From Fibrobacter sp. UWP2 (GTDB taxonomy: Bacteria; Fibrobacterota; Fibrobacteria; Fibrobacterales; Fibrobacteraceae), in NCBI RefSeq assembly GCF_900141705.1, contig NZ_FQYM01000006.1:1-64000 (forward strand): a stretch of DNA of 64,000 bases. The letters run 5' to 3'. Shown here piece after piece: positions 6,714 through 50,571 of this stretch (position 1 is its first letter; each line of letters starts with the position of its first letter). The notes beneath the pieces were generated by a model. That model was not told where the DNA came from. It saw only the letters and a program-made list of their open reading frames with translations, and searched no databases. The translations under genes were made by a program, and so were the position numbers.

Positions 6714-6725
6714 ATCCAACTCCAT

Positions 6726-7014
6726 ACGTTTTCATCAGTAAAAATATACCGCCCGCCCCCAAAACACAACCTGCAACCCAAAGAATGTGTGTAAAAAACG
6801 TTTTTTTTCAAAAAAGTAGTTTGAAACCGAGGACATCTCCGATCAACCTCGAAATATGCTTTCCATAGCAAAATAGTAAGCATTTTCGTAAAAAAGTTCA
6901 GTTTTCTACCGTTTCTACTCTACGGGAAACCCCTAAAAATACCTACTTTGTACCCTATGAATTTTGCATAGGCAAGATTTTGCGAAACAGTTAAACAATA
7001 ACGCGTAAAAGAGT
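6726..7014. other. Divergent intergenic region (M6 protease / etfB)
   Basis: AT-rich, 289 bp, between divergently transcribed genes, so it must hold promoters for both. I see no unambiguous pair of -35/-10 boxes for etfB, only AT-rich candidates around 6940-6990, and no structured leader. Confidence 0.4.
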
Positions 7015-7896
7015 ATGAGTCTTAAAATCGTTGTGCTTGCTAAGCAAGTACCTGATACACGAAACGTGGGCCCCGATGCCATGACGGAGCAGGGAACCAT
7101 CAATCGTGCCGCATTGCCCGCGGTCTTCAACCCCGAAGACCTGAACGCCCTGGAGCAAGCCCTTCGTTTGAAGGACCAGTTCCCGGGTTCCACCATCTCT
7201 GTGCTGACGATGGGTCTCCCGAAGTCTGCCGAAGTCGTCCGCGAAGCTCTGTACCGCGGTGCCGACGAAGGTTTCGTGGTGACGGACCGCCCGCTCGGTG
7301 GTGCTGACACTCTCGCTACGAGCTACACGCTCGCCCAGGCCGTCAAGAAGATCGGCGACTACGACATCATTCTCGGTGGCCGCCAGGCTATCGACGGCGA
7401 TACCGCACAGGTCGGTCCGCAGATTGCAGAAAAGCTCGGCCTCACCCAGGTGACCTACGCCGAAGAAATTCTCTCCCTCGACGAAAAGGCCAAGAAGGTC
7501 GTGATCCGCCGCCACATCGACGGTGGCGTGGAAACGGTGGAAGCACCGCTCCCGCTGGTCGTGACCGTGAACGGAAGTGCGGCCCCGTGCCGTCCGCGCA
7601 ACGCAAAGCGCCTCATGAAGTTCAAGAACGCAACCGTGGTTGCCGAACGCAAGCCGGAAGACGCCGAAAAGTACGAAGCCCTCATCGCGAAGAAGCCCTA
7701 CCTGAACATTCCGCAGTGGGGTGCCGCCGACATCGACGCAGACCCTGCCCAAATCGGCAAGGCCGGTTCGCCGACGAACGTGAAGGCTGTCAAGAACATC
7801 GTGTTCAAGGCGAAGGAAAGCCGCACGCTCACCGCAAGCGACGCCGACGTCGAAGGACTTATCAAGGAACTTTTAGACGGGAAGATTATTGGCTAG
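7015..7896 (+). CDS. etfB: Electron transfer flavoprotein beta subunit
   Basis: Small subunit of the heterodimeric ETF that accepts electrons from acyl-CoA dehydrogenases; it carries AMP or a second FAD. The 293 residues show the family N-terminus (KIVVLAKQVPDT), the nucleotide-binding block GGADTLATSYTLAQA...ILGGRQAIDGDTAQVGPQIAE, and the loop ending RPRNAKRLMKFK. It is longer than mitochondrial EtfB, as in anaerobes. First gene of etfB-etfA-acyl-CoA dehydrogenase, with a 3-bp gap to etfA. Confidence 0.95.
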   Translation: MSLKIVVLAKQVPDTRNVGPDAMTEQGTINRAALPAVFNPEDLNALEQALRLKDQFPGSTISVLTMGLPKSAEVVREALYRGADEGFVVTDRPLGGADTLATSYTLAQAVKKIGDYDIILGGRQAIDGDTAQVGPQIAEKLGLTQVTYAEEILSLDEKAKKVVIRRHIDGGVETVEAPLPLVVTVNGSAAPCRPRNAKRLMKFKNATVVAERKPEDAEKYEALIAKKPYLNIPQWGAADIDADPAQIGKAGSPTNVKAVKNIVFKAKESRTLTASDADVEGLIKELLDGKIIG

Positions 7897-35878: not shown

Positions 35879-36625
35879 TTATTTCAATTTTCTTCCGCCA
35901 TCAATAATCAATTCCAAGCCCGTAACCCAACTGCTAGCGTTGCTAAGCAAAAAAACAACGCCTAAAGCAACATCAACAGGACGTCCATAACGTCCAAGTG
36001 GATACAATTCTAAATCAGCTCGTTTACTCGCATCCGTATACGTGCCATCATTAATCAGTTTGGTTTCAACCATTCCTGGCAAAACGGCATTGCACCGAAT
36101 ATTTTTTGGTCCTAATTCTATTGCGCAGGTTCTCATATAGGCGCTCACCGCAGCCTTTGATGACGCATAAACGGCAAGGCCTGCTGCCGTCATATAAGAA
36201 GACAAAGAAGACGTAAAAACAATGGACCCGCCTTTGCTAATCTTCTTGCCTTTCAAAAGCATCTTGGTAAGCATGATTACACCAAAGACATTCGTCTGAT
36301 AGACATCCTGCAAATCCTGACGTTTAACAAAATTTACGGGTTTGCACAAACCTCGACCAGCATTATTCACCAAGCCATCAAGTACTGGGCTCTCTATAGC
36401 AAGTTTTTCAATGTCGGCGTCATTATTCAAGTCTGCGGCAATCATTACATGGCCTTCGCCATCAAGCTGATCAAATGTTTCCTTTAAGCGTTCTTGATTT
36501 CGCCCAGTAATCACCACCTTAGCACCCATTTTGGAGCATTCAATGGCTATTCCCTGGCCTATGCCCGAAGATGCTCCTGTAATAAGGATTGTTTTTCCTT
36601 CTAGTGAAAATGGGTTATACAACAT
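35879..36625 (-). CDS. SDR-family 3-oxoacyl-ACP reductase-like protein
   Basis: Short-chain dehydrogenase of about 248 residues, FabG type. NADPH-binding TGASSGIGQG near the N-terminus, NNAG, catalytic Ser in SSLSSY and YxxxK as YASSK, and a C-terminal SSWVTGLELIIDGG. It probably reduces a 3-oxoacyl-ACP to the 3-hydroxyacyl form. Start uncertain: ATG at 36625 or 36634, both inside the end of the upstream KASIII gene and after an AGGAGG. Confidence 0.87.
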   Translation of the reverse strand: MLYNPFSLEGKTILITGASSGIGQGIAIECSKMGAKVVITGRNQERLKETFDQLDGEGHVMIAADLNNDADIEKLAIESPVLDGLVNNAGRGLCKPVNFVKRQDLQDVYQTNVFGVIMLTKMLLKGKKISKGGSIVFTSSLSSYMTAAGLAVYASSKAAVSAYMRTCAIELGPKNIRCNAVLPGMVETKLINDGTYTDASKRADLELYPLGRYGRPVDVALGVVFLLSNASSWVTGLELIIDGGRKLK

Positions 36626-37706
36626 ACTTCTCATCAGCCTCCTCATCTGCAACTTCTACGAGTTGCGAAACAACGACATCATTCGTATCAAAAACAACCG
36701 TTCCCCAAGAAAGGCCAACACCAAAACCACAGCAAATGAACCTGGTTGACTCATTTTCAAATTTGCCCTTCAGCTGGGAAACAATTGTAAGCGGAATACT
36801 AGCTGAAGAGGTATTGCCAAACTTATACATACAAGTGGGGACTTTCTCTGCAGGCAACTTCAACTTTTTTGCAATCATATCATTCATTTTCATATTCGCT
36901 TGATGGAAAATGAAATAATCAGCCGAACCATAATCGAAGTCATAATGTTCGGCGAGTTTTTTTACGGATTTAGGAGCAACTGAAATTCCAAACGAGAACA
37001 CATCCATACCTTTCATTCTAGTTTGCAAACGGCACAAATGTTTTCCATTAATATTTTCTTGCACAAAGGATTTATCTGTATACGGACTGCGACTACCCCC
37101 ATCTGGAGTAATAATGGCATCAAAGCCACTACCATCTGTACCAAAATGGAAATCAAAACCTTTGTCACCTTCCATATATTCAACAGCTGTTGCAGTTCCC
37201 GCGCTGCCAAACAAAGGATCACGTAATAAATTAGTGGTTCTAAAACGACTTTTAGCATCTCCGCAAAGTAAAAGTGCTTTTTTTATCATACCAGAGGTCA
37301 AAAGTGATGCCACGGAGCTTAAACCATACACCCAACCAGAGCAACCCAAAGACATATCCGTTGCATAACAATCTTTTGACAATCCCAAGCGATCCTGCAA
37401 AATACACGCCGTTGCAGGCAGTATATAATCAGGTGTTTGAGATACAAAAATAATAGCCCCAATCTCCTTTTTGTCCCAACCCAAATCAGCAATAAGTTGT
37501 TCTGCAGCAGCATAGCTCAAATCTGACGTTGTTAGGATCGTGGAGACTCGGCGTTCCAAAACACCCGTCGTTTTCACATAGTCTTCAGGAGAATATTCAC
37601 TAGACATCACGTCATCCTCTGTTGGATGAAGATTGCTAGCAATATTTTGTGGAACACCGGCAGCAAATCCAGCTATCCGAACATTTGGAAACGACAGGAA
37701 AGCCAT
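36615..37706 (-). CDS. 3-oxoacyl-ACP synthase III family protein (KASIII-2)
   Basis: 363 residues, diverged paralogue of KASIII-1. Cys122 in SLGCSGWVYG, His in FHQANMK and Asn in FGNTSSASIP form the thiolase-type triad. TAATG overlap with the ACP gene and overlap with the SDR gene show an operon. Two KASIII enzymes beside one ACP suggest either two condensation steps or one acting as an acyl transferase. Confidence 0.9.
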   Translation of the reverse strand: MAFLSFPNVRIAGFAAGVPQNIASNLHPTEDDVMSSEYSPEDYVKTTGVLERRVSTILTTSDLSYAAAEQLIADLGWDKKEIGAIIFVSQTPDYILPATACILQDRLGLSKDCYATDMSLGCSGWVYGLSSVASLLTSGMIKKALLLCGDAKSRFRTTNLLRDPLFGSAGTATAVEYMEGDKGFDFHFGTDGSGFDAIITPDGGSRSPYTDKSFVQENINGKHLCRLQTRMKGMDVFSFGISVAPKSVKKLAEHYDFDYGSADYFIFHQANMKMNDMIAKKLKLPAEKVPTCMYKFGNTSSASIPLTIVSQLKGKFENESTRFICCGFGVGLSWGTVVFDTNDVVVSQLVEVADEEADEKYVV

Positions 37707-37936
37707 TATATTCTTCCTTTTACAATATTGAAAAGGTCTTCAATGGTGACAGAACCCTCGACATCAGCCCCTTTGAGCGCAACATCATATTCCTCATCAA
37801 CCATAGCGATGACATTTAAAGCCGTTAGGGATGACCACTCTTCTAAATCATGAAAGTTGGTATCAGCTTTAAATTCAGCAGCATCAGTGTCTTCGAACTG
37901 TTCTGCAAAATGCTTGACGAATTCATTAATATCCAT
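37706..37936 (-). CDS. Acyl carrier protein, pathway-specific
   Basis: 76-residue acidic ACP. The phosphopantetheine serine is Ser36 in EWSSLTALNVI (the usual DSL is SSL), with downstream helix III TIEDLFNIV. Unlike AcpP it sits among sugar genes. It probably carries a short acyl group made by the adjacent KASIII and SDR enzymes and hands it to the acetyltransferase-like GNAT encoded upstream. Confidence 0.9.
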   Translation of the reverse strand: MDINEFVKHFAEQFEDTDAAEFKADTNFHDLEEWSSLTALNVIAMVDEEYDVALKGADVEGSVTIEDLFNIVKGRI

Positions 37937-37949
37937 TTTAACTCCTTTT

Positions 37950-38516
37950 CTATAATTTTAGAACGTTCTTATGTTTTTTATATAGCCTTTCCAGTGTTTG
38001 TCTCACCTTTTGGGCTCCAGAAGTCTCTATACGCAAATCTTGTTCAAAATAACATGCGCTTCGCCCCCCCCTTTCTATTGTACGGATAAAGACTCCTCCT
38101 CTCTTTTGCGCATTATTTATATTGCCTACATTGTTCGCATATATTACATAGCTTATCCTATTTATGTGTAAAGTCTGTACACAGAAGCAAGCCATTAAAT
38201 ATCCTATTTCCATCCGTTCAGCAGGTTCACCTATATTCACCTCTCGTCCAAATTCTCCCATATCACCATGAATATCATATATACCAACTAGCCCAATCCG
38301 CTCGCCCTTCTTGTTCAGCACCACAAAATAATAGTCATTTGGCTCTTGCATTTGCCAGCGGATAAAATCCTTCTGGGCTTCGAGTGACGGAGCCAGTTGC
38401 CCTACGGTGTCGCGGTTTCGCTTGTCGGCACGGATATTGTACGAAAACTCGGCATCATCGAGCGTGATGCTTCGCAAATCGACAAACATTCCATGTATCA
38501 CTTCAGGGTAAACCAT
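37950..38516 (-). CDS. GNAT-family N-acyltransferase
   Basis: 188 residues with RimJ/RimL-type GNAT fold (VDLRSITLDDAEFSYNIRADKRN, then RIGLVGIYDIHGDMGEFGREVNIGEPAERMEIGYLMAC, then NRISYVIYANNVGNINNAQKRGGVF). Position between WecE and the ACP suggests it acylates the 4-amino group of the TDP-sugar, the role WecD plays with acetyl-CoA, here possibly from acyl-ACP. Its 13-bp gap to the ACP gene supports one operon. Confidence 0.8.
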   Translation of the reverse strand: MVYPEVIHGMFVDLRSITLDDAEFSYNIRADKRNRDTVGQLAPSLEAQKDFIRWQMQEPNDYYFVVLNKKGERIGLVGIYDIHGDMGEFGREVNIGEPAERMEIGYLMACFCVQTLHINRISYVIYANNVGNINNAQKRGGVFIRTIERGGRSACYFEQDLRIETSGAQKVRQTLERLYKKHKNVLKL

Positions 38517-38575
38517 ACAACGCCTACTATTTTGTAATATAAGTTATTTTAGAGACGCAAGGAGCATTTAGACCA

Positions 38576-39712
38576 TTACACCCCAAAAAACTCATACACC
38601 TTTTCGCAGACATACTCAATTTCTTCTGTTTTCAGCCCGTAGAACATGGGCAAACGGAGCAATCGGTTACTTTCATTGGTAGTGAACTTGTCTTCACCGT
38701 GGAACCTGCCGAAACGCATGCCTGCGGGCGACGAATGCAGAGGCACATAGTGGAACACCGCGAGAATGCCGTTATACACCAAATGCTTCAAAAGCGCAGT
38801 ACGCGTCTGCAGGTCTTCAACCTTCAGGTAGAACATGTGCGCATTGTGTTTGCAATGTTCCGGAATATACGGCAACTCGACCAGGCCCTTTTCGGCAAGC
38901 GGGGCAAGCCTTTCTCGGTAAGCATTCCAACTAGCCATGCGGGCATCATTAATAATATCGGCACATTCCAGTTCGGCATAAAGATAGGCTGCATTCAATT
39001 CGCTGGGCAAGTAGCTAGAGCCGAGTTCAACCCAGGTGTACTTATCGACTTCGCCACGGTGGAACTGACAGCGATTCGTGCCCTTTTCACGGATGATTTC
39101 AGCGCGGTCGTTATACTTGGAGTCGTTGATGAGCAGTGCTCCTCCTTCACCCATGCTGTAGTTCTTTGTCTCGTGGTAGCTGTAGCAACCGAAATCGCCC
39201 ATAGATCCGAGAGCACGGCCCTTGTAGGTCGCCATCATGCCCTGGGCAGCATCTTCGACCACAAATAAATTATGTCGTTTCGCGATTTCGTTTATCACAT
39301 CCATTTCGCAAGCGACACCCGCATAGTGGACCGGCACAATCGCCTTGGTCTTTTCGGTTATGGCGTCTTCGACAAGCTTTTCATCAAGGTTCATCGTATC
39401 GGGGCGGATATCCACGAACACGCTTTTTGCCCCTTGCGACACGAACGCATCAGCGGTGCTAACGAACGTGAACGACGGCATAATGACCTCGTCGCCGGGA
39501 GCAATATTGCAGAGACGGGCAGACATTTCGAGAGCGTGGGTGCAGCTGGTAGTAAGGAGCGCCTTTGCGGCCCCCGTATGTTTTTCAAGCCATTCATGAC
39601 AACGCAGATTGAATGTCCCGTCACCACAAATGCGACCGCTCTCCACGGCCTGCTTCACGTAGTCAAATTCCATTCCTACAAAGGGAGGCTTATTAAAAGG
39701 AATTTTTGTCAT
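38576..39712 (-). CDS. wecE: TDP-4-keto-6-deoxy-D-glucose aminotransferase
   Basis: PLP enzyme of the DegT/DnrJ/EryC1/StrS family, 378 residues, with near full-length similarity to enterobacterial WecE (RffA). Shared blocks: IPFNKPP, GEVIMPSFTFVSTADAFV-type region, AIVPVHYAGVACEMD, VVEDAAQG, the PLP lysine K183 in YHETKNY, EIIREKGTNR and VFHYVPLHSSPAG. It makes TDP-4-amino-4,6-dideoxygalactose (TDP-Fuc4N). It is less AT-rich than its downstream neighbours. No rmlA or rmlB in the window, so the keto-sugar is supplied from elsewhere. Confidence 0.93.
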   Translation of the reverse strand: MTKIPFNKPPFVGMEFDYVKQAVESGRICGDGTFNLRCHEWLEKHTGAAKALLTTSCTHALEMSARLCNIAPGDEVIMPSFTFVSTADAFVSQGAKSVFVDIRPDTMNLDEKLVEDAITEKTKAIVPVHYAGVACEMDVINEIAKRHNLFVVEDAAQGMMATYKGRALGSMGDFGCYSYHETKNYSMGEGGALLINDSKYNDRAEIIREKGTNRCQFHRGEVDKYTWVELGSSYLPSELNAAYLYAELECADIINDARMASWNAYRERLAPLAEKGLVELPYIPEHCKHNAHMFYLKVEDLQTRTALLKHLVYNGILAVFHYVPLHSSPAGMRFGRFHGEDKFTTNESNRLLRLPMFYGLKTEEIEYVCEKVYEFFGV

Positions 39713-39751
39713 ATCGGAAATATAAACTTTATTTTACTCTTTGGATTTCAC

Positions 39752-40459
39752 CTACCGGTCAATAGACTGTTCCAAATTGCAATTGATAAAAACCACAGGT
39801 ACCCACGGGGCAAGATACTTGCGCCGAGTTTCAGGCGTACCGAGGATGGGCCTGTGCGTCCCCTGAACAACAAATTGAACGTCGGGATGCCTGGACGCCA
39901 CAGCAGAAATATCCCTTAGCAGTTTATGGAGTTTACCCCGGTCTCCCTCGCGGGTACCACGTGCCATCCAGGCAATTTTGTTCCACGAACCTTCCAAAAT
40001 AAGGGAATCTATTTTAGCGCATCCCATAGAATCATTGCTGTCAATAACAACCCCATCCTTAAAGCTGCTACCGTATTCTATTGATTCCGCATAGGATGTC
40101 GTTTGGAACGGCCTCTTGTGAACGGCATAGGAAACGTTTTTCCCGCCAATCATCTGAAAGTCCGCTTCTAGGAGACCTTCGTCATAGGGAACTCCCCAAC
40201 CGTCAACGAGAATCATGACCAACGGCTTAGCTGAATCCTGCAAAAGGCTCGCTAGCGGCTTTTCGTCCAGCACCTGATAGCGGTCTTTGTAATGTTGGGA
40301 TAGTGAATCTGCGCCGAATGGAACAAGATGCCATGGTCCCTGGCTCCAGCCGGCTCGTATAGAAATTCCCTTGTCCAGGTGCAAAATTGGCACGGAGATG
40401 AGCAACGCAAGGAACGCGGAGAATAGCAGAAGATTAATGTTGAGTTTGTTCATCTTCAT
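39752..40459 (-). CDS. Membrane-anchored protein with alkaline-phosphatase-like start
   Basis: 235 residues. One N-terminal membrane anchor (about 6-25), then a periplasmic domain. The strand PLVMILVDGWGVP resembles the metal-site strand of the alkaline phosphatase superfamily, and FVVQGTHRPILG may be a second site, but the protein is short for that family, so function is uncertain. It overlaps the 3' end of the GT-C-like gene by 26 bp and precedes wecE. Confidence 0.6.
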   Translation of the reverse strand: MKMNKLNINLLLFSAFLALLISVPILHLDKGISIRAGWSQGPWHLVPFGADSLSQHYKDRYQVLDEKPLASLLQDSAKPLVMILVDGWGVPYDEGLLEADFQMIGGKNVSYAVHKRPFQTTSYAESIEYGSSFKDGVVIDSNDSMGCAKIDSLILEGSWNKIAWMARGTREGDRGKLHKLLRDISAVASRHPDVQFVVQGTHRPILGTPETRRKYLAPWVPVVFINCNLEQSIDR

Positions 40460-42146
40460 TCTCCAAAGCGCGGTACTTGAGCAGTTTGATGTTCCCGAAA
40501 CTCATCAGCGTATCCGTTTTCAATCGTGTGTGATAATGAATCTTATAGAAAGGCGCAAGGGACAATGCAGTCGCTTCGGAAATCATATAGACATTGTCCT
40601 TTGTCACATCCTTGATTAGGTTTGTCACGCCCCTCTTTTCCAGTTCCCGCTCTATCGCGGGCAAATACATGTTCCAGTAGCCTGTGGAGTGAATGTTGTT
40701 CCAACTGCCCGGTTCAACGGTGATGAAAACATTATTGAATTTTTTTGAGAATTCTTTGTAGCGTTCAAATGGCAAAAGGAATACATCATCGGGGTGCTCT
40801 TTTGCGTAAGAGGAGAATGCCAACCAGTCTTCCTGCGTTCCAGATGTGGGGCGTGCCGCTTTTGTAGCCGTCGCCATTCTGTCAAAATAGATATTTACGC
40901 CCAAAATAATAAGACTAGAAATACCGACGATTGTGGCCGTTTTCAAGAAAAGTTTTGTTTGTTTCTTGTCAAGAATATCGTCTTTTTCCATAAAAAACAG
41001 GACAAATACAATAGCCAACGCCCACACCCCAACCTCTACGTGGTCGACAACTCTACTCACCAAAAGTAAGTATGTGTAAGGAATTGCAACAAGGCCAATG
41101 GACACCCAAGGGACCCACCAATTGCGCTTGTTGGAAAAGAAAATTAGAGCCAAGCACAGAAGCGCCCAGCACCATGTACTTCCACGCATCAAGGAGTCCG
41201 AAAATACGAGTACAAGCGCAGCCGGAAACTTCGCATAATTCGGCTCATAGCGATGTCTATCTGCGATTTCAATCAAATGCCTCATGCTATCCAGCGAAAA
41301 GACGTTCTTGTCGTAAAAGTACCATGCCTGTAGGTAAGTGAGGTCAAGGCTGTTCAAGCCCCGCTCATCCAATTCAGCTTCAAAAGATTTGTCATCGTAA
41401 AAAGCGCCGTCACCAAAATAGGCGCGGGGGCCCTGATACGCGGCATAGAATTCGTAATCCCCCTTGTAATGTTCGGAGTCAAACTTGCCAAGCGCTACAT
41501 AGGCAGAGGCGAGAACGACCAAAGCGATTAACGATGATTTCCAGATTGTTTTTAACCGTATGAATGTGAAGAAAAGGAGCGCTGCGAGGGTAGGCATCCC
41601 TAGTAGGAACATCTCCTTCCGGAACACGAACCCGGCAAGCATTAATACGATTCCGCAGATTAAATGGTTGCGCTTCTTTTCTGCATTGCCAATGGCGAAA
41701 AGCAGTATGCCTGCTGCGGTCGCGATGCCCGCGCATTGGGTAAACGCCACATGCAAATAGAAATCGGGCGAGACACAGGCCAGCAACAAAAAGGCCAATA
41801 CACTGCCAGTCCTTTTGCCAAACCTTTCCAGAACTACATAGCATAGTGCCGTGAAAGATGCAAAAACAGTAAAGTACTGAAACACGGAGTACCAGCTTAC
41901 GCTAGGCAGTACGGCATAGAATGGGCGCAGGAAATATCCGTAAACGACATTGACGAAATACATGTGCACATCGTATTCTCCACCATAGGCGCCCGTCAAT
42001 ACAGCGGACATGAAAAAGTCGTCTAGCGAAGAAAATTTTCCATCGCCAATAGCAAAGAAAATTGCAAAAGCAAAAATGTTCAAGCAGACTGCAAAAAAAA
42101 GCGACGAACGGCACAGCTTGTTTATGGCAGGAATGTCCTTGAGCAT
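40434..42146 (-). CDS. Polytopic membrane protein, GT-C glycosyltransferase-like
   Basis: 570 residues with about ten to twelve membrane helices and a soluble C-terminal part of about 130 residues. The first external loop holds an acidic pair (FSSLDDFFMSAVLTGAYGGEYD), the place where GT-C transferases keep their catalytic Asp. No family name can be given from sequence reading alone. In context (GtrB-like GT2, SMR pair, amino-sugar genes) it would fit the third component of a Gtr-type system, moving the sugar from undecaprenyl phosphate to a periplasmic acceptor. First gene of the leftward cluster. Confidence 0.6.
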   Translation of the reverse strand: MLKDIPAINKLCRSSLFFAVCLNIFAFAIFFAIGDGKFSSLDDFFMSAVLTGAYGGEYDVHMYFVNVVYGYFLRPFYAVLPSVSWYSVFQYFTVFASFTALCYVVLERFGKRTGSVLAFLLLACVSPDFYLHVAFTQCAGIATAAGILLFAIGNAEKKRNHLICGIVLMLAGFVFRKEMFLLGMPTLAALLFFTFIRLKTIWKSSLIALVVLASAYVALGKFDSEHYKGDYEFYAAYQGPRAYFGDGAFYDDKSFEAELDERGLNSLDLTYLQAWYFYDKNVFSLDSMRHLIEIADRHRYEPNYAKFPAALVLVFSDSLMRGSTWCWALLCLALIFFSNKRNWWVPWVSIGLVAIPYTYLLLVSRVVDHVEVGVWALAIVFVLFFMEKDDILDKKQTKLFLKTATIVGISSLIILGVNIYFDRMATATKAARPTSGTQEDWLAFSSYAKEHPDDVFLLPFERYKEFSKKFNNVFITVEPGSWNNIHSTGYWNMYLPAIERELEKRGVTNLIKDVTKDNVYMISEATALSLAPFYKIHYHTRLKTDTLMSFGNIKLLKYRALENEDEQTQH

Positions 42147-42178
42147 ATCACTAATATAAATTTTTTCCCGTATGCAGG

Positions 42179-43012
42179 CTAAAGCTTGTTAAACTTTCTC
42201 ATTTCTTTGTCCAGGAACGGATCCACGAATTTTGCATAAATCAACGTTGTTTCCAGATTCCGGTGGCCGAGCAGCTTGCTTGTAGCGGGGAGCGGGATTC
42301 CAAGTGTTATGCAGGTCGTGGCGAAGGTGTGCCGAGCCAAGTGGCAGTGGATGTACTTGCTGTGTCCGAGTTTTTGTGCCGCGCTGCGCAACGACCTGTT
42401 GAAGTAGGAGTTCTCGACCACCCTGAAAACTGGGCCGTTTGTCATTTTTTCGGGCAACAACAGGCGCGCCTGCACCGGAATGGGAATGTACACCGGGTCG
42501 CCCGTCTTGTGCATCTGCTTGCGGATTTTCCAGTCGAAAATCTCGTTGCCGTTTAACGTTTTCAAATCGCTGTAACGCAATCCGGTAAAGCAACTGAACA
42601 AAAAGACCCGCATGGTGTCCTGTTCTGTTTGCGTCAGGAACCTCCTCTTTTCTTCAAAACTCAGATAAAGGCTTTTGAGTTCGCGTTTTGTCAAGAAGCC
42701 TCTCCGAGTGTAAACCCGTCCAATCTTGATTTTGTCAAACGGGTTAACCTTCAATAGTCCGTCTTGAAACATCCGGTTTGTAAAATTCCTGAAAACGGAA
42801 AGGGCTTTGTTTATGGTACTCTGCTTGTTGCCTTGCTGAATCAGGTAAGTCTTGTATTCCTGTACCAGTTCGGTGGTTACGTATTCGCACTCCAAATCTG
42901 GGCAAAAATTTGAAATTTTCTTCAAATTCCAGTAATAGGCCCGCACCGAAAGCGGCGCAAGATTGTATTTTTCCTTGTCCAAATACTGCATTGCGGTATC
43001 AAAAAAGAGCAT
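42179..43012 (-). CDS. Tyrosine recombinase (phage integrase family)
   Basis: 277 residues. N-terminal SAM-like core-binding domain (about 1-100), then the catalytic domain with R146 (TGLRYSDL), H224/R227 (HLARH), H250 (LLGHRN) and nucleophile Y259 (LIYAK). All key residues are present, so it should be active. ATG at 43012 has AAGGA six bases upstream. It is read away from the truncated pilin cassette whose 48-bp repeat begins 75 bp from its start. No excisionase, phage or transposon genes are nearby, which favours a dedicated invertase role over element mobility (inference). Bacteroidetes use similar recombinases for local inversions. Confidence 0.9.
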   Translation of the reverse strand: MLFFDTAMQYLDKEKYNLAPLSVRAYYWNLKKISNFCPDLECEYVTTELVQEYKTYLIQQGNKQSTINKALSVFRNFTNRMFQDGLLKVNPFDKIKIGRVYTRRGFLTKRELKSLYLSFEEKRRFLTQTEQDTMRVFLFSCFTGLRYSDLKTLNGNEIFDWKIRKQMHKTGDPVYIPIPVQARLLLPEKMTNGPVFRVVENSYFNRSLRSAAQKLGHSKYIHCHLARHTFATTCITLGIPLPATSKLLGHRNLETTLIYAKFVDPFLDKEMRKFNKL

Positions 43013-43086
43013 AGGGATTCCTTTTTTTGTTCCGGACCATCCAGAAACAGGGGACAAAGTTAGGACTATTACTCAGAGTGCGTTTT

Positions 43087-43134
43087 GCAGGAACCTACGT
43101 GCATATGCAGGATGCTTACTTCGTGGACCAGCAG
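43087..43134. repeat. 48-bp inverted repeat, left copy (candidate recombination site)
   Basis: Starts GCAGGAACCTACGTGCATAT and ends GTGGACCAGCAG; inverse copy at 46451-46498 with one mismatch. It contains the 10-bp palindrome TGCATATGCA at 43100-43109. It encodes AGTYVHMQDAYFVDQQ in the same phase in both pilin loci. Sequence upstream of it is unrelated in the two places; downstream similarity drops to protein level. Confidence 0.88.
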
Positions 43135-43380
43135 TCAATCGGAACCTGGACGCAAATTGGCTACGAGTCGCCCACCTCCAAAAATTTTGCTTACGACGCA
43201 TCTAATGGTTATGAATGGTATGCTAACGCCTCTTTTGATCTTCCGGATGGCTGCACTAATGGGTGGTATGTTGATGTGGATGAAATAACAGTTGATAACG
43301 TCAAAACGGTCAAATACCAGGCAAGCGACAACTGCTCTCCTCTCACTCCGAACTTCAAGAACATCGGTACTTCCTCGTAA
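43087..43380 (+). pseudogene. Silent pilin cassette lacking promoter and N-terminal half
   Basis: Encodes about 97 residues homologous to the C-terminal part of the pilin at 46205-46630 (GTYVHMQDAYFVDQQ...SDNCSPLTPNFKNIGTSS). The leader, the prepilin cleavage site and the hydrophobic helix are absent. The frame stays open to 43027 but has no ribosome site or pilin sequence there. I interpret it as an unexpressed alternative C-terminal half, intact and ready to be joined to the N-terminal half by inversion, not as decay: no internal stop or frameshift exists. A terminator follows. Confidence 0.85.
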
Positions 43381-43401
43381 CCTCTATCTTGAACTAACTA
43401 T

Positions 43402-43440
43402 GGCCCGCCAAAGTCCTTGTGACGAGGCGGGCTTTTTTTA
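43402..43440 (+). terminator. Terminator after silent pilin cassette
   Basis: GCCCGCC and GGCGGGC stem followed by seven T, directly upstream of the pilin A promoter. An inverted copy is at 46146-46184. Confidence 0.85.
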
Positions 43441-43498
43441 AGGATTCTATTATTAACAGCCGTTATAACTATATTTTGAACGAGAGGGGCATGGCGAA

Positions 43499-43921
43499 AT
43501 GAAGCGCGGATTTACACTTATCGAACTCATGGTCGTGATCGTAATCATGGGCATCTTGGCGGCGATTGCTGTGCCAAAGCTCTTTTCGATGATTGCAAAA
43601 TCCAAGGCGGCCGAAGTCGGCCCTGCCGCCGGTTCGTATGTACACCGGCAGGATGTGTATATTGCAGAAATGCATGCCGTTGGCGATTTTAAAGCTATCG
43701 GCTACGATGTTCCGTCAAGTACAGTCTTCTCCTACACCGAGACTTACACCGCCAAGACTAAGGAAGTCTGGAAGGCAACTCCAAAGGCAGGCCTTTCCGA
43801 GTGCTCGTCCGGCACTTGGACTGTGACATCCGAGATGGATTCGCACGGAGGCAAGCATGTCGCAGAGACGGACTGCACGAACCTGACTCCAAACTTTACC
43901 GCTATTGGATCCGGGTCGTGA
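43499..43921 (+). CDS. Type IV pilin-like protein A
   Basis: 140-residue prepilin-like protein. The leader is very short (MKRG), cleaved before FTLIELMVVIVIMGILAAIAVPKLFSMI, the methylated Phe/Glu5 helix of type IV pilins and pseudopilins. The globular part ends LTPNFTAIGSGS. Two Cys near residues 102 and 131 could form the disulfide loop. RBS GAGAGGGG. Nearly identical upstream DNA and about 85% identical codons occur in inverted orientation in pilin B (45664-46086). Whether it is a true pilus subunit or a pseudopilin cannot be told. Confidence 0.88.
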   Translation: MKRGFTLIELMVVIVIMGILAAIAVPKLFSMIAKSKAAEVGPAAGSYVHRQDVYIAEMHAVGDFKAIGYDVPSSTVFSYTETYTAKTKEVWKATPKAGLSECSSGTWTVTSEMDSHGGKHVAETDCTNLTPNFTAIGSGS

Positions 43922-44025
43922 TTGCGTTTGTCTCTTGCGAGAGAGCTTTTTATTGATTCTCGACAGATTTTGAACATGGTTATGTATAACCGTCGTAAAA
44001 AGGCGGATTATAGCAAAATTTTGTT

Positions 44026-44051
44026 ATAATCGTTGTTTTTATGACGATTAT
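44026..44051. promoter_or_regulatory. Probable HipB operator
   Basis: Inverted repeat ATAATCGT (44026-44033) and ACGATTAT (44044-44051) with a 10-bp spacer, 18 bp upstream of hipB, in the place where HipB-type repressors bind. Confidence 0.6.
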
Positions 44052-44068
44052 TATGTATATTTCTAACC

Positions 44069-44374
44069 ATGTGGAACGAAATGACGACCCCCTCTATCTT
44101 GAAGGAAATGGGTTCAAGGCTCAAGGAATACCGCCTGCGTAAAGGGCTCATGCAGTCCGAACTGGCGGAATCTGCCGGTGTTGGTGTTGGTACGATTGCC
44201 AAGATGGAGCGCGGGGGCGCCGTGTCAGTACAAATTCTGTTGAGCGTTCTGCGTTCCCTCGGCATGCTCGAGAATATAGAGCAGCTCCTGCCGGAACCTC
44301 CCGTGAGCCCGCTCCTTTTGCGCAGGCTACAGGGAGGCAAGATCCAACGCATAAAACGGAGCAAGGCCAAATGA
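44069..44374 (+). CDS. hipB: HipB-like XRE-family antitoxin/repressor
   Basis: 101 residues. The helix-turn-helix (MGSRLKEYRLRKGLMQSELAESAGVGVGTIAKMERGG) occupies residues 14-51; the basic C-terminal tail (RRLQGGKIQRIKRSKAK) may contact HipA or DNA. It overlaps hipA by ATGA. Antitoxins of this family bind HipA and repress the operon. It lies inside the inverted-repeat pilin segment. Confidence 0.9.
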   Translation: MWNEMTTPSILKEMGSRLKEYRLRKGLMQSELAESAGVGVGTIAKMERGGAVSVQILLSVLRSLGMLENIEQLLPEPPVSPLLLRRLQGGKIQRIKRSKAK

Positions 44375-45657
44375 GCGAACTTGTCGTAAACGTGCGATTG
44401 TGGGGCAAGCCTGTCGGAGCGTTGTCGTGGGATACTTCGCGGGGTGTCGCCTATTTCGAATACGAGCCCGCCTTTGTTCGTAATCCGTTGCCGGTATCAC
44501 CCATAAAGATGCCCGTGGAGAAGGGCGTTTTCTCTTTTGCCGAGAACCGGAACAACTGTTTTCGCGGACTCCCGGGACTCATTGCGGATTCTCTGCCGGA
44601 CAAATTCGGTGACCAGATTATTTCGGAATGGTTTCAGACCATGGGCCGCCCGCTAGAGACAGTGACTCCGCTGGAACGCTTGTGCTATGTCGGTAAGCGC
44701 TCTATGGGCGCACTGGAGTTTGAGCCCAGTTTGTCTACACCGGGGCTTGACGAGTCTACGGAAATTCTTGTGGACGACCTCGTCAAGTTGGCCGAGAGCG
44801 TTTTCCGCGACCGCGAAAAGTTCAGGGAGAAGCTTGTCCAGCAGGATAAGACCTTGTACGACATCTTGCGAGTCGGCACTTCTGCCGGGGGCGCAAAGCC
44901 CAAAGCGATTATCGCCTATAACGAATCTACGGGCGAAGTGCGCAGTGGCCAGGTTCCTGCGCCAAAGGGGTTCGGCTATTGGCTGCTCAAGTTCGACGGC
45001 GTAAGCTACCGCGAGCACGACAGCATTACCGAAATACCCCGCGGGATAGGCAACGTGGAATACGCCTACTACAAGATGGCTTTGCAGGCTGGGATTTGCA
45101 TGAGCGAGTGCCGCATTCTGGAAGATAGCAGCGGTTGCCATTTTATGACTAGGCGTTTCGACAGAAAAACTGACGGGGCCAAACTGCACATGCAGACACT
45201 TGCGGCCTTGGCACACCTGGACCGCGACGTGCGCCATTCCTACGAAGACTCCTTTGCCGTGATGCGCAAGCTCGGGCTCGACGCCAAAGCAGACGAGGAC
45301 GTGTTCCGCTGCATGGTCTTCAATGTGTTTGCAAAAAACAATGACGACCACACCAAGAACATTTCTTTCTTGATGGACGAGACCGGAACCTGGAAACTGG
45401 CGCCCGCATACGATTTGTGCTACGCCAACGATCCGAGGAGTCGCTGGATAAAACGCCACCAGATGTCGGTGAACATGAAACAGGAAAATATCACACGCGA
45501 AGACCTCAAGGCGGTGGCGGAACGCGTCGGAATCCGCAAATACGCGGCCATCATGGACCAGGTCGAAAATGCGGTCGCCTGCTGGAACGAGATTGCGAAG
45601 GACTGCGGCGTTCGCGAAAACCACCGTGAGGAGATTTCGCGGGAACTGCTTAAATAA
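44371..45657 (+). CDS. hipA: HipA-family serine/threonine kinase toxin
   Basis: 428 residues, full length for HipA. Hallmarks: N-terminal domain (VRLWGKPVGALSWD), the glycine-rich loop VGTSAGGAKPKA, the catalytic loop NVFAKNNDDHTKNISFLMD and the metal-binding LAPAYDLCYA. E. coli HipA phosphorylates glutamyl-tRNA synthetase and causes persistence; targets differ among relatives. All catalytic residues are intact. It may help retain the segment between the pilin repeats, since its loss would free the toxin (inference). Confidence 0.92.
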   Translation: MSELVVNVRLWGKPVGALSWDTSRGVAYFEYEPAFVRNPLPVSPIKMPVEKGVFSFAENRNNCFRGLPGLIADSLPDKFGDQIISEWFQTMGRPLETVTPLERLCYVGKRSMGALEFEPSLSTPGLDESTEILVDDLVKLAESVFRDREKFREKLVQQDKTLYDILRVGTSAGGAKPKAIIAYNESTGEVRSGQVPAPKGFGYWLLKFDGVSYREHDSITEIPRGIGNVEYAYYKMALQAGICMSECRILEDSSGCHFMTRRFDRKTDGAKLHMQTLAALAHLDRDVRHSYEDSFAVMRKLGLDAKADEDVFRCMVFNVFAKNNDDHTKNISFLMDETGTWKLAPAYDLCYANDPRSRWIKRHQMSVNMKQENITREDLKAVAERVGIRKYAAIMDQVENAVACWNEIAKDCGVRENHREEISRELLK

Positions 45658-45663
45658 ACGCTA

Positions 45664-46086
45664 TCACGGTCCGGCTCCAATGGCCGTGAAATTTGGAGTC
45701 AGCGAAGTGCAGTTAGTTGCGGCGACATGCTTGCCGCGGCTAGATTTTATTTCAGATGTCACAGTCCAGGTGTCGGAAGAACATTCGGGGAGCCCAGCCT
45801 TTGGAGTGGCAGTCCAGACCTCCTTGGTTTGGGCTGTATAGGTCTCGGTGTAGGAGAAGACTGTGCTTGACGGAACATCGTAGCCGATAGCTTTAAAATC
45901 GCCAACTTCAAACTTTTCGGCGATATACACGTCCTGCCGGTGTACATACGAACCGGCGGCAGGGCCGACTTCGGCCGCCTTGGATTTTGCAATCATCGCG
46001 AAGAGTTTCGGTACGGCGACTGCCGCCAATATGCCCATGATAACAATCACGACCATCAGTTCGATAAGTGTAAATCCGCGCTTCAT
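45664..46086 (-). CDS. Type IV pilin-like protein B (inverted paralogue of A)
   Basis: 140 residues, MKRGFTLIELMVVIVIMGILAAVAVPKLFAMI N-terminus and LTPNFTAIGAGP end. Differences from pilin A cluster in the exposed middle and C-terminal regions (EKFEVGDF, SEIKSSRGKHVAATNCTS), while the upstream 110 bp are virtually identical. It has the same terminator-promoter-gene layout as A but on the opposite strand, 6 bp from the end of hipA. Confidence 0.88.
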   Translation of the reverse strand: MKRGFTLIELMVVIVIMGILAAVAVPKLFAMIAKSKAAEVGPAAGSYVHRQDVYIAEKFEVGDFKAIGYDVPSSTVFSYTETYTAQTKEVWTATPKAGLPECSSDTWTVTSEIKSSRGKHVAATNCTSLTPNFTAIGAGP

Positions 46087-46145
46087 TTCGCCATGCCCCT
46101 CTCGTTCAAAATATAGTTATAACGGCTGTTAATAATAGAATCCTT

Positions 46146-46184
46146 AAAAAAAGCCCGCCTCGTCACAGGGACTTTGGCGGGCCA
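46146..46184 (-). terminator. Terminator after pilin C
   Basis: Inverted copy of the terminator at 43402-43440; stem GCCCGCC/GGCGGGC and seven T on the minus strand, 20 bp after the pilin C stop and just upstream of pilin B. Confidence 0.85.
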
Positions 46185-46204
46185 TATTTAACTCAAGACT
46201 ATTG

Positions 46205-46630
46205 TTACGAGGATGAACCGATGCTCTTGAAGTTCGGAGTCAGCGCCGGGCAGTTGTCGCTTGCCGTGTAGCTGATTGATTTGCTAGTTGGGTTCACAGT
46301 AATTGACCATTCATCACTAGTGCACTTGCCGTCGGTGTTAAATTTAGCTGTAGCAGTCCATGTCTTTCCCGACGTTGCATCCTTGCCTTCGTATTTGAAG
46401 TTTGAGGAGGAAGGAGCCGTGTAGCCAATAGCGTTCCAATTTCCCACCTGCTGCTGGTCCACGAAGTAAGCATCCTGCATATGCACGTAGGATCCTGCTG
46501 CCGGACCGGCTTCAGAGGCCTTGGACTTGGCGATCATCGCGAACAGCTTCGGCACTGCGACAGCGGCCAGGATGCCCATGATCACGATCACGACCATCAA
46601 CTCAATGAGGGTAAAACCTTGTTTCTTCAT
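46205..46630 (-). CDS. Type IV pilin-like protein C (expressed partner of the silent cassette)
   Basis: 141 residues. Prepilin leader MKKQG, then FTLIELMVVIVIMGILAAVAVPKLFAMIAKSKASEAGPAAGSYVHMQDAYF. ATG at 46630 has AAGGAG at ideal spacing and a good promoter upstream. The 48-bp inverted repeat covers about codons 45-60, immediately after the conserved helix. The remaining 80 residues (CTSDEWSITVNPTSKSISYTASDNCPALTPNFKSIGSSS) are the part that would be exchanged. Of the four pilin units here it alone has its own independent promoter and long leader. Confidence 0.9.
   Translation of the reverse strand: MKKQGFTLIELMVVIVIMGILAAVAVPKLFAMIAKSKASEAGPAAGSYVHMQDAYFVDQQQVGNWNAIGYTAPSSSNFKYEGKDATSGKTWTATAKFNTDGKCTSDEWSITVNPTSKSISYTASDNCPALTPNFKSIGSSS
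46451..46498. repeat. 48-bp inverted repeat, right copy (candidate recombination site)
   Basis: Inverse of 43087-43134 with one mismatch, inside pilin C. Crossover here and at the left copy would flip about 3.3 kb and keep the pilin reading frame. Confidence 0.88.
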
Positions 46631-46709
46631 AGTGTACTCCTTGTTGTTTGTGACACACTTGTTTGAGCCTCCGGCCCGTTGGTGGGCGTTCGACTCGTTT
46701 ACATCCACT

Positions 46710-46738
46710 AATATACACACTTTCTTTTGAAAAAGCAA
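46710..46738 (-). promoter_or_regulatory. Pilin C promoter
   Basis: Minus-strand -35 TTGCTT (46733-46738), 17-bp spacer, -10 TATATT (46710-46715). Predicted leader about 70 nt to the ATG at 46630. This promoter lies outside the candidate invertible segment, so it would stay fixed. Confidence 0.65.
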
Positions 46739-47040
46739 TAGTTTTGTCAAACTTTTGTCACATTTGTGTCATAACAACACAGAGTAGACCAAATTTTGCT
46801 TTTTTTACTCAAAAACGCCACATCAGGGGTGTTTTGGATGCTTACAATTATAGATTTTTATTTACAAAAAGGGGGCTTTTTGTGAAAATTTATAGTCCAA
46901 TGTGTAATAAATCACACCCCGTTGCAAGCTTTTTGTGACAAAAACAAGACAAAAGAGGGGTCGCCTGGACGGCGACCCTTCGTGTTTAGCGACAACTTTA
47001 GTTTGTCTACAATTCGCAATGACGCTGGATGATGCACGCC
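46739..47040. other. AT-rich intergenic region upstream of pilin C
   Basis: About 300 bp without a gene. It holds several TGTGACA/TGTCACA motifs (for example 46755-46770 and 46934-46940) that could bind a CRP-type regulator, a CAAAAAG-GGGG-CTTTTTG hairpin near 46865, and the terminator of the convergent-side lipoprotein gene. Confidence 0.4.
46951..46980 (-). terminator. Terminator of LamG lipoprotein gene
   Basis: GGGTCGCC and GGCGACCC form a perfect 8-bp stem (46958-46965/46971-46978), followed on the minus strand by CTCTTTTG. Confidence 0.65.
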
Positions 47041-48651: not shown

Positions 48652-48792
48652 ACCTAATATAAATATAATTCCTTGGGGCACTTTCCAGACAACGATAAAC
48701 AACAAAGGCGTTGCCCGCAGACAACGGCATTTTTTGTGTTTTTTAGCATAAAAACGCAACTTTTACGCCAAACTTGTATATATATTGTTTTT

Positions 48793-50571
48793 ATGCAACC
48801 GCAACCGCTAAGACTTTCTGAGATTACCATATCGAACCTGCGCTCCATACAGAGGCAGACTTTCCCGTTGAGTGGCTTCACGGCGCTGATCGGCTACAAC
48901 AACGCCGGCAAGACGAACATTTTGATGGGGATCCGCTGGTTGCTTTCGCGCTTTTCGCTCGACATCTCGTACTTTGACGACCCCAACCGCCCCGTGGAGG
49001 TGGAAGGCGTTTTTGACGGCATCACCGAGACGGTACTGAACCGCCTGGGCGAAGAAAAGGCCGCCGAGGTCAAGCCGTTCCTCGCAGGCGACATGCTCAA
49101 AATCAAAAAAGTGCAGCGCGTGCCGGGCGAAGTGCCCGAGAACGTGGAGCTGTGGGCGTTTGTGCCGCCCAACCGCCGCAAAGACAAGCGCCAGGAGTGG
49201 GAGCGCATGGGCGACGCCTTCCGCCACGCCTTTAGCCGCATGTTCCCCCAGAGCATCGCCATTTGGGACTTTGAGGGCAACGAGGCGTTCACCAAGCTTT
49301 TGCACGAGATTTTTAAGCCGCTGGAACGCCGGTTTGGCGGCGAGTTCAACGACATCATCAACAAGTTCAGCGACATGCTGAGCCCGGGCGGCGAGAACCA
49401 GGCCGCCGAAATCCAGAGCTTTGACAGGGACGTGAACGAAAAGCTGCACCCGCTGTTCCCCAGCGTGCGCGTGGAGCTCGACATCCCCATCCCTACCCTC
49501 GAGACGTTCCTCAAAAAGGCGACGCTCAAGGTGATTGACGAAGACGACGGCTTTGAACGCGACATAAACCGCATGGGCGCGGGTTCGCAGCGCGCCATCC
49601 AGATGGCGCTCATCCGCTACCTCTCCGAGGTCAAAAAGCACCACAACAACCACTACCTGAGCCGCACCCTGCTGCTCATTGACTCGCCCGAGCTCTACCT
49701 GCACCCGCAGGCGGTGGAACTGGTGCGCGTGGCGCTCAAGAACCTCTCGAACGAGGGTTACCAGGTGGTGTTCGCGACACACAGCGCCCAGATGGTCACA
49801 AGCGAAGACGTGAGCACCTCGCTGCTCATCCGCAAGAACAAGGAACGCGGCACCTTTATGCGCAAACGAATGGAAGACGCCGTGCACCAGGTGGTGCAAG
49901 ACGCCCCGAGCCAGCTGCAAATGCTCTTTAGTCTCTCGAACAGCAACGAGCTCCTGTTTGCCGACTACGTGCTTTTGACCGAGGGCAAAACCGAGTGGCG
50001 CGTGCTGCCGGCGCTGTTCGAACGCATCACGGGCCAAAGCTTTGCGCTCATCAAGTGCGCCCTGGTACGCCAGGGCGGCGTGAGCAACACCCGCAAGAGC
50101 ATGCAGGTGCTCGACGCGATGGACATGCCGGTGCGCGCGATTGTGGACCTCGACTACGCCTTCACCACTGCCACCCGCGACGGCTTTTTGGAGGCGAACG
50201 ACCCCGACATCAAGTTCTGCCGCAACCTGTTCCGCGAACTCGCGTTCCACCAGCATTTGCGCCTGGTGAACGGGCTCCCGGTGAACAAGCACAGCAACAT
50301 TAGCGCCTCTAGGGCGTACGCCATGATGGCCGAGATGCCCGAGGCCGAGAAGGCCATCCGCAGCATCCACGCCAAGCTCCGCAGCCAGGGAATTTGGGTG
50401 TGGACCCGCGGCGCCATCGAAGAGCACCTGGGCCTGGAAGCCAAGAACGAGGCGGCCTGGAGCAATTTTATTGAACGGAGCAAGTCCAGGAACTTTATCC
50501 AAAATTTGCCGGACTACGACGGCATTGTGGAACTGTGCAACTGGATTATTGACGGCAGTAGAGATGCCTAG
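48793..50571 (+). CDS. OLD-family ATP-dependent endonuclease (AAA + TOPRIM)
   Basis: 592 residues. Walker A GYNNAGKTN near residue 33, a long insertion with helical arms, the signature-like GAGSQRAIQMALIRYL, Walker B LLLIDSPELYLHPQAVELV, the ATHSAQMV motif, then a TOPRIM domain starting LLTEGKTEWRVLPALF with DLDYAF as the metal-binding pair. OLD proteins act in phage exclusion; Gabija GajA is a relative, but no GajB-like helicase gene is adjacent. Codon use is GC-rich as in core genes. Divergent from the lipoprotein gene. Confidence 0.9.
   Translation: MQPQPLRLSEITISNLRSIQRQTFPLSGFTALIGYNNAGKTNILMGIRWLLSRFSLDISYFDDPNRPVEVEGVFDGITETVLNRLGEEKAAEVKPFLAGDMLKIKKVQRVPGEVPENVELWAFVPPNRRKDKRQEWERMGDAFRHAFSRMFPQSIAIWDFEGNEAFTKLLHEIFKPLERRFGGEFNDIINKFSDMLSPGGENQAAEIQSFDRDVNEKLHPLFPSVRVELDIPIPTLETFLKKATLKVIDEDDGFERDINRMGAGSQRAIQMALIRYLSEVKKHHNNHYLSRTLLLIDSPELYLHPQAVELVRVALKNLSNEGYQVVFATHSAQMVTSEDVSTSLLIRKNKERGTFMRKRMEDAVHQVVQDAPSQLQMLFSLSNSNELLFADYVLLTEGKTEWRVLPALFERITGQSFALIKCALVRQGGVSNTRKSMQVLDAMDMPVRAIVDLDYAFTTATRDGFLEANDPDIKFCRNLFRELAFHQHLRLVNGLPVNKHSNISASRAYAMMAEMPEAEKAIRSIHAKLRSQGIWVWTRGAIEEHLGLEAKNEAAWSNFIERSKSRNFIQNLPDYDGIVELCNWIIDGSRDA

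Follow-up and report, generated by a model that had tools for sequence, protein, structure and literature searches.

A leaderless pilin cassette in Fibrobacter sp. UWP2 as the probable silent head of a site-specific inversion switch

Organisation of the pilin locus

The window, that is, the whole 64,000-nucleotide stretch of Fibrobacter sp. UWP2 that was analysed (contig NZ_FQYM01000006.1, positions 1 to 64,000), comes from a genome whose nearest named relatives are UBA4375, RUG11387, and UBA7003. Its pilin locus contains, from left to right, a tyrosine recombinase gene (minus strand), a leaderless pilin cassette designated D (plus), the full-length pilin A (plus), a hipB-hipA pair (plus), and the full-length pilins B and C (both minus). 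The left flank (36615-42146) carries surface-polysaccharide-type genes, such as those for a ketoacyl synthase III, a DegT/DnrJ aminotransferase, a short-chain dehydrogenase, and a large membrane protein, and an OLD-like ATPase ORF lies to the right of the locus (48673-50571). The features of the locus are as follows:

42179-43015, minus strand: tyrosine recombinase, predicted inverter, adjoining D (PF13102 and PF00589; co-occurs with the sites)
43087-43380, plus strand: silent pilin cassette D, the C-terminal 97 codons of a pilin, with neither leader nor start (sequence, domain, and homology comparison, and AlphaFold head model)
43095-43112, plus strand: recombination site copy 1, 18 bp, CTACGTGCATATGCAGGA, at the start of D
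43104-46481, no strand: predicted invertible segment, 3378 bp (in silico, cut set mid-site)
about 43401-43439, plus strand: intrinsic terminator after D, GCCCGCC...GGCGGGC hairpin and T-run
43499-43921, plus strand: pilin A, full length, after D; second gene once the segment is inverted
44069-44374, plus strand: hipB-like antitoxin, within the invertible segment (PF01381)
44371-45657, plus strand: hipA-like toxin kinase, within the invertible segment (PF07804, E = 1.5e-48); inverted relative to the flanks in the sister genome G044
45664-46086, minus strand: pilin B, full length, after C; its C-terminal part is 83% identical to that of A
46205-46630, minus strand: pilin C, full length, predicted expressed copy, with N_methyl leader
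46473-46490, minus strand: recombination site copy 2, inverted, inside pilin C
46631-46912, minus strand: upstream region of C, presumed to hold its promoter and 5' UTR; sister species conserve this region along with the leader

The 97-residue product of D corresponds to residues 45-141 of pilin C (57% identity, E = 1.6e-27), and its frame contains no stop between 43015 and the TAA at 43378-43380. The prepilin leader (Pfam N_methyl) was detected by domain search in all three full pilins and not in D, for which no plausible start codon was found either. The terminal motif SDNCSPLTPNF of D has its counterpart in SDNCPALTPNF of the full pilin, and the terminator following D is nearly identical to one following C (about 46184-46146, minus strand). 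These comparisons bear out the sequence-only reading of this region, which had described an intact C-terminal pilin half with no leader or start, a frame open to its natural stop, a conserved terminal motif, and a terminator at its 3' end. That reading had also claimed that D has no transcription signal, and this part stands only in so far as no sigma-70-like match lies upstream on the plus strand, a weak negative from a scan whose matches were no more frequent than in shuffled sequence.

The homology between D and C begins abruptly: the first 48 nt of D (43087-43134) equal 46498-46451 at 47 of 48 positions, and the sequences upstream of the two stretches are unrelated. The arrangement of D and A mirrors that of C and B, giving two pairs of inverted repeats, 43302-43929/45656-46283 (85%) and 43087-43196/46389-46498 (76%). 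The AlphaFold2 model of pilin C is that of a type IV pilin (pLDDT 86.9) with four strands and a helix at residues 8-59; among solved structures it is closest to gonococcal pilin 1ay2 (TM 0.62), and the Myxococcus pilus 8tj2 is among the top matches. Pilin C has the features of type IV pilins, namely a class III signal with GFTLIE, a long N-terminal helix, and a beta-sheet head. In the model of D (pLDDT 88.5) the head is the same but the helix lacks its first half; the structure matches of D itself are weak. According to these models, the switch point would fall in the middle of the long helix, so that the membrane and polymerisation part would be constant and the exposed head exchanged.

Recombination site, cassettes, and recombinase in relatives

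The 18-bp sequence CTACGTGCATATGCAGGA is found twice in the window, at the start of D and, inverted, within the full pilin C, where it occupies approximately codons 47-52. The commoner form of the site is TACGTGAAGTTGCAG, with TACGTGCATATGCAG in the clade of the window and TACGTAAAGTTGCA in one sister genus. An IUPAC search for the site across 80 genomes of the genus returned 61 matches, against one for the reversed control pattern. The cassettes match the leader gene at ~25% beyond position -11, at > 90% over the first 15 bases of the site, and at ~50% by base 40. The window site contains TGCATATGCA, a 10-bp palindrome, and no strong dyad was seen in the common form. Variant sites, CGTGCATGACCAGG and CATCAATCTCCAGG, were observed in loci L118 (G050; 6258-7340) and L039 (G016); their restriction to certain leader/cassette pairs suggests that the system may comprise several site classes.

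The codons of the site are nearly fixed among relatives: Y is TAC in 62/62, V is GTG in 61/62, K is AAG in 53/53, L is TTG in 52/56, and Q is CAG in 60/61 cases. The codons that follow vary (GAT 31 and GAC 14; GCT 24, GCA 24, GCC 7, and GCG 6; TAT 24 and TAC 23), and in general usage TTG accounts for 23% of the Leu codons in the window, GTG for 34% of Val, and AAG for 52% of Lys. Because five site codons are nearly fixed, the next three are free, and the fixed codons are not specially favoured, the constraint on the site is selection on the DNA and not on the protein.

The same architecture was found in about 25 Fibrobacter genomes, each with one leader-bearing pilin containing the site and one to seven leaderless cassettes, on both strands and all initiated by the site. 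In G158, a closed sister-genus genome, 14 kb accommodate one leader pilin, nine leaderless cassettes, and ten sites around a central recombinase gene, and other sister-genus genomes hold one leader with seven cassettes (G153) or one with three. The pilin heads are highly diverse between sister species, and because of this the head repertoire must turn over fast.

The sequence-only reading had taken the open frame to suggest periodic expression, and stops or frameshifts proved uncommon in relatives: 60 of 65 leaderless cassettes of related genomes are open for at least 83-85 codons from the site, the remaining five or so being broken, decayed, or ended by a contig edge. For pairs of relatives' cassettes with dS > 0.3, dN/dS ranged from 0.06 to 0.57, with a value of about 1 in one very recent pair; D itself, whose nearest pilin is 57% identical with dS saturated, lies outside these pairs.

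The recombinase adjoining D is a tyrosine recombinase whose catalytic residues (R-K-HxxR-H-Y), all present in the window copy, are invariant in 35 orthologues. It is present in 18/18 genomes with at least two sites, in 5/8 with one, and in 13/54 with none (Fisher 5e-9 for at least two sites versus no site, with genomes that are not phylogenetically independent). Its gene sits directly beside or inside the array in the window and in G044, G091, G050, G046, G005, G006, G020, G042, G066, G070, G083, and others, and orthologues lie away from the cassettes in G004, G014, G045, G069, G072, and G073, where they would need to act in trans. Stand-alone recombinase loci were seen in G014, G004, G001, G072, G069, and G073 (L147-L152), that of G014 beside GGDEF and radical-SAM genes; these enzymes may serve the pilin array in trans or another switch. 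Within the phylum, the recombinase was found in this family only, in four genera. A recombinase fragment 100% identical to that of the window, with the break inside the gene, occurs on a contig binned as a Bacteroidales MAG (L166, JAEEUY010000212.1), which is probably a misbinned Fibrobacter contig. R64 Rci was rejected as the nearest relative of the enzyme (24% identity over 178 aa, E = 0.002). An integron was likewise rejected, as the integrase_gron score was 41.7 against a cut-off of 265 and the cassettes lie on both strands and are fixed to one gene.

Proposed inversion of the segment and competing explanations

In silico inversion of 43104-46481 yields an in-frame fusion of the C leader to the D head, 141 aa in length, followed by pilin A instead of B; inversion would therefore swap the downstream pilin too, and two pilins would change together. 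Comparison of the window with G044 showed collinear left (39773-43184, 90%) and right (46390-46912, 76%) flanks around a reversed hipBA. Ordinary homologous recombination across the 628-bp inverted repeat made up of pilins A and B (85%) could also flip hipBA, and because of this route the difference in hipBA orientation alone is no proof of site-specific inversion. Collinear flanks with a reversed interior of ~2.4 kb were also found between G073 and G045, and the same pattern of inverted interiors in the comparisons G001/G073 and G072/G073.

The assembly of the relative G069, in nine contigs, includes one contig of 7908 bp with a site at both ends, and the leader contig and a flank contig each share exactly 95 nt with one of its ends (contigs at the junctions: C4, C7, and C1; L126-L128, L169, and L170). 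The two cassettes concerned have only their first 41 nt in common, and because the 95-nt overlaps exceed this shared stretch, the reads would have contained alternative junctions, with leader and flank each connected to either cassette, at which a de Bruijn assembly (k = 95, deduced from the overlap length) breaks. The structure of this assembly suggests that mixed orientations were present in the sequenced culture, which comes closest to a direct sign of a mixed population and stems from a relative and not from the window genome. In G069, four of five sites lie within 100 bp of a contig end (chance about 3e-13), and contigs of G009 and G043 likewise end within the site.

These observations make it very probable that D is a silent cassette in a switch that inverts pilin DNA, a two-headed shufflon in the window, operated at ~18-bp sites by the neighbouring recombinase. 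The tyrosine recombinase at 42179-43015, predicted to be the inverting enzyme, would recombine the two inverted sites and flip 43104-46481, joining the promoter, leader, and polymerising helix of C either to head C, with pilin B following, or to head D, with pilin A following. Both states would occur in the window strain, and the head left unjoined would be silent; periodic expression, and the selection that comes with it, is proposed to keep it intact. Two features speak against this reading: in several genomes the recombinase orthologue is distant from the cassettes, and the commoner form of the site has no strong dyad.

Neisseria pilS/pilE vary by RecA-dependent one-way gene conversion, and the Fibrobacter locus resembles them in having silent leaderless pilin copies as sequence donors. 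A RecA-type conversion, in which D would be a pilS-like donor overwriting parts of C with no inversion, fits the near-identical 5' (48 nt) and 3' ends of D and C around a divergent middle, and two G044 cassettes that are 95.6% identical over 365 nt indicate that conversion or duplication does occur at times. However, the cassettes and the expressed gene have an invariant site of ~15 bp in common and nothing upstream of it, a dedicated recombinase co-occurs, and inverted interiors are found, which conversion does not yield. Because of the sites, the recombinase, and the inverted interiors, which set the system apart from Neisseria, reciprocal inversion is favoured, and gene conversion is an improbable account of D. 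A silent pilin copy expressed after recombination, as the sequence-only reading had proposed, is the best-supported interpretation, with site-specific inversion as the probable route, unlike the conversion of Neisseria pilS. That reading had named no mechanism, nor had it mentioned the recombinase next to D, the mirrored order of D-A and C-B, or the site common to D and C.

Somewhat less probable still is that D is a dead remnant, cut off by an old duplication-inversion or by the insertion of an element carrying an integrase, and too young to have decayed. An integrase-family gene does abut the truncation point and a few cassettes of relatives are broken, but the pilin gene is cut at one identical base in about 80 cassettes from more than 25 genomes, most of them open; D carries neither stop nor frameshift despite a 43% protein difference from C; and dN/dS stays under 0.6 in every diverged pair. 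Truncation through insertion of such an element in particular was rejected, since dozens of cassettes have the identical cut point. Least probable of all is an invertible segment whose repertoire mainly serves hipBA or other toxin-antitoxin cargo, with incidental pilins: such genes are common between sites (HipA_C in 10 of 80 interior ORFs), but the cargo varies by genome, several loci have none, and the constant element is the leader pilin with its cassettes.

Relation to known switches and biological meaning

The inversion switch proposed here can be compared with the shufflon of the IncI plasmids R64, R721, and TP114 (pilV, sfx, Rci), in which a constant N-terminus is combined with partial C-terminal ORFs, often in convergent pairs, and whose sfx sites have a conserved 7-bp core and 12-bp right arm and a left arm that is not conserved (PMC9045228). 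The Fibrobacter system shares the constant N-terminal gene, the partial C-terminal ORFs in both orientations, each initiated by a site (the window having one silent head only), the tyrosine recombinase beside the array, and a one-sided conservation of the site, the asymmetric layout being compared from the description in PMC9045228. However, it is chromosomal and spread over a bacterial family, whereas the IncI shufflon is a plasmid system, and it swaps the globular head of a pilin of ~141-170 aa at codon ~47 instead of the tip adhesin domain of PilV; the target in the window, a chromosomal 141-aa pilin with no long adhesin part, is not of the pilV type. In addition, the Fibrobacter recombinase has a PF13102 N-domain, absent from Rci, to which its identity is as low as given above, and toxin-antitoxin genes, among others, lie between the Fibrobacter cassettes.

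In Moraxella bovis and M. lacunata, according to the account of Marrs (1988) as relayed in PMC4073114 and PMC11868660, inversion places one of two alternative C-terminal pilin parts behind a single promoter and N-terminus. Similarly, the Fibrobacter locus has an inverted site inside the pilin gene, common to the expressed copy and a silent headless copy, and the window holds exactly two heads. The Moraxella recombinase Piv is a DEDD enzyme of the IS110/IS492 type, whereas the Fibrobacter enzyme is of the PF00589 tyrosine type with R-K-HxxR-H-Y, and relatives of the window genome hold up to nine silent heads. Because its recombinase is neither Rci nor a DEDD Piv, the Fibrobacter system is best called a new chromosomal variant of the pilin shufflon, a member of neither the R64 nor the Moraxella family. 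No earlier description of pilin inversion, a shufflon, or phase variation in Fibrobacter was found in the open-access literature searched.

Genes resembling toxin-antitoxin modules (HipA, AbiEii, DUF3990, PIN, AAA/DUF4143) recur between pilin sites in different genomes, at 44069-45657 in the window, at L116:4954-6595, and at L175:847-11998. Among 80 interior ORFs between sites, HipA_C was detected in 10, DUF3990 in 10, AbiEii in 5, and PIN in 3, while HipA_C was found in at most 2 of 131 flanking ORFs among the matches listed (Fisher 0.0013, with ORFs that are not independent). Toxin-antitoxin cassettes stabilise large integrons (PMC11023631), and by analogy those between pilin sites may guard against deletion between directly repeated sites, which is a lead and not a result. 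A wider proposal, of a family-wide chromosomal shufflon in Fibrobacteraceae whose HipBA, AbiE-like, DUF3990, and PIN modules would be addiction guards of the silent heads and whose head mixture would set the fibres or phages bound, is speculative and rather unlikely to hold as a whole.

In the rumen, Fibrobacter species rank among the leading degraders of cellulose. Published work connects their type IV pilins with cellulose adhesion (PMC3079729, PMC4704652), and we infer that the benefit of switching would be a changed pilus surface, affecting adhesion to plant fibre or escape from phages or protists. If true, recombinase-driven exchange of the exposed pilin half would let cells of one clone differ in adhesion and could account for spontaneous adhesion variants. 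The system would then represent, beyond the Proteobacteria, a multi-cassette pilin shufflon that is located on the chromosome and has a recombinase and a site of its own. Short 'headless' pilin ORFs, which are easily taken for pseudogenes, would in that case be functional reserve parts.
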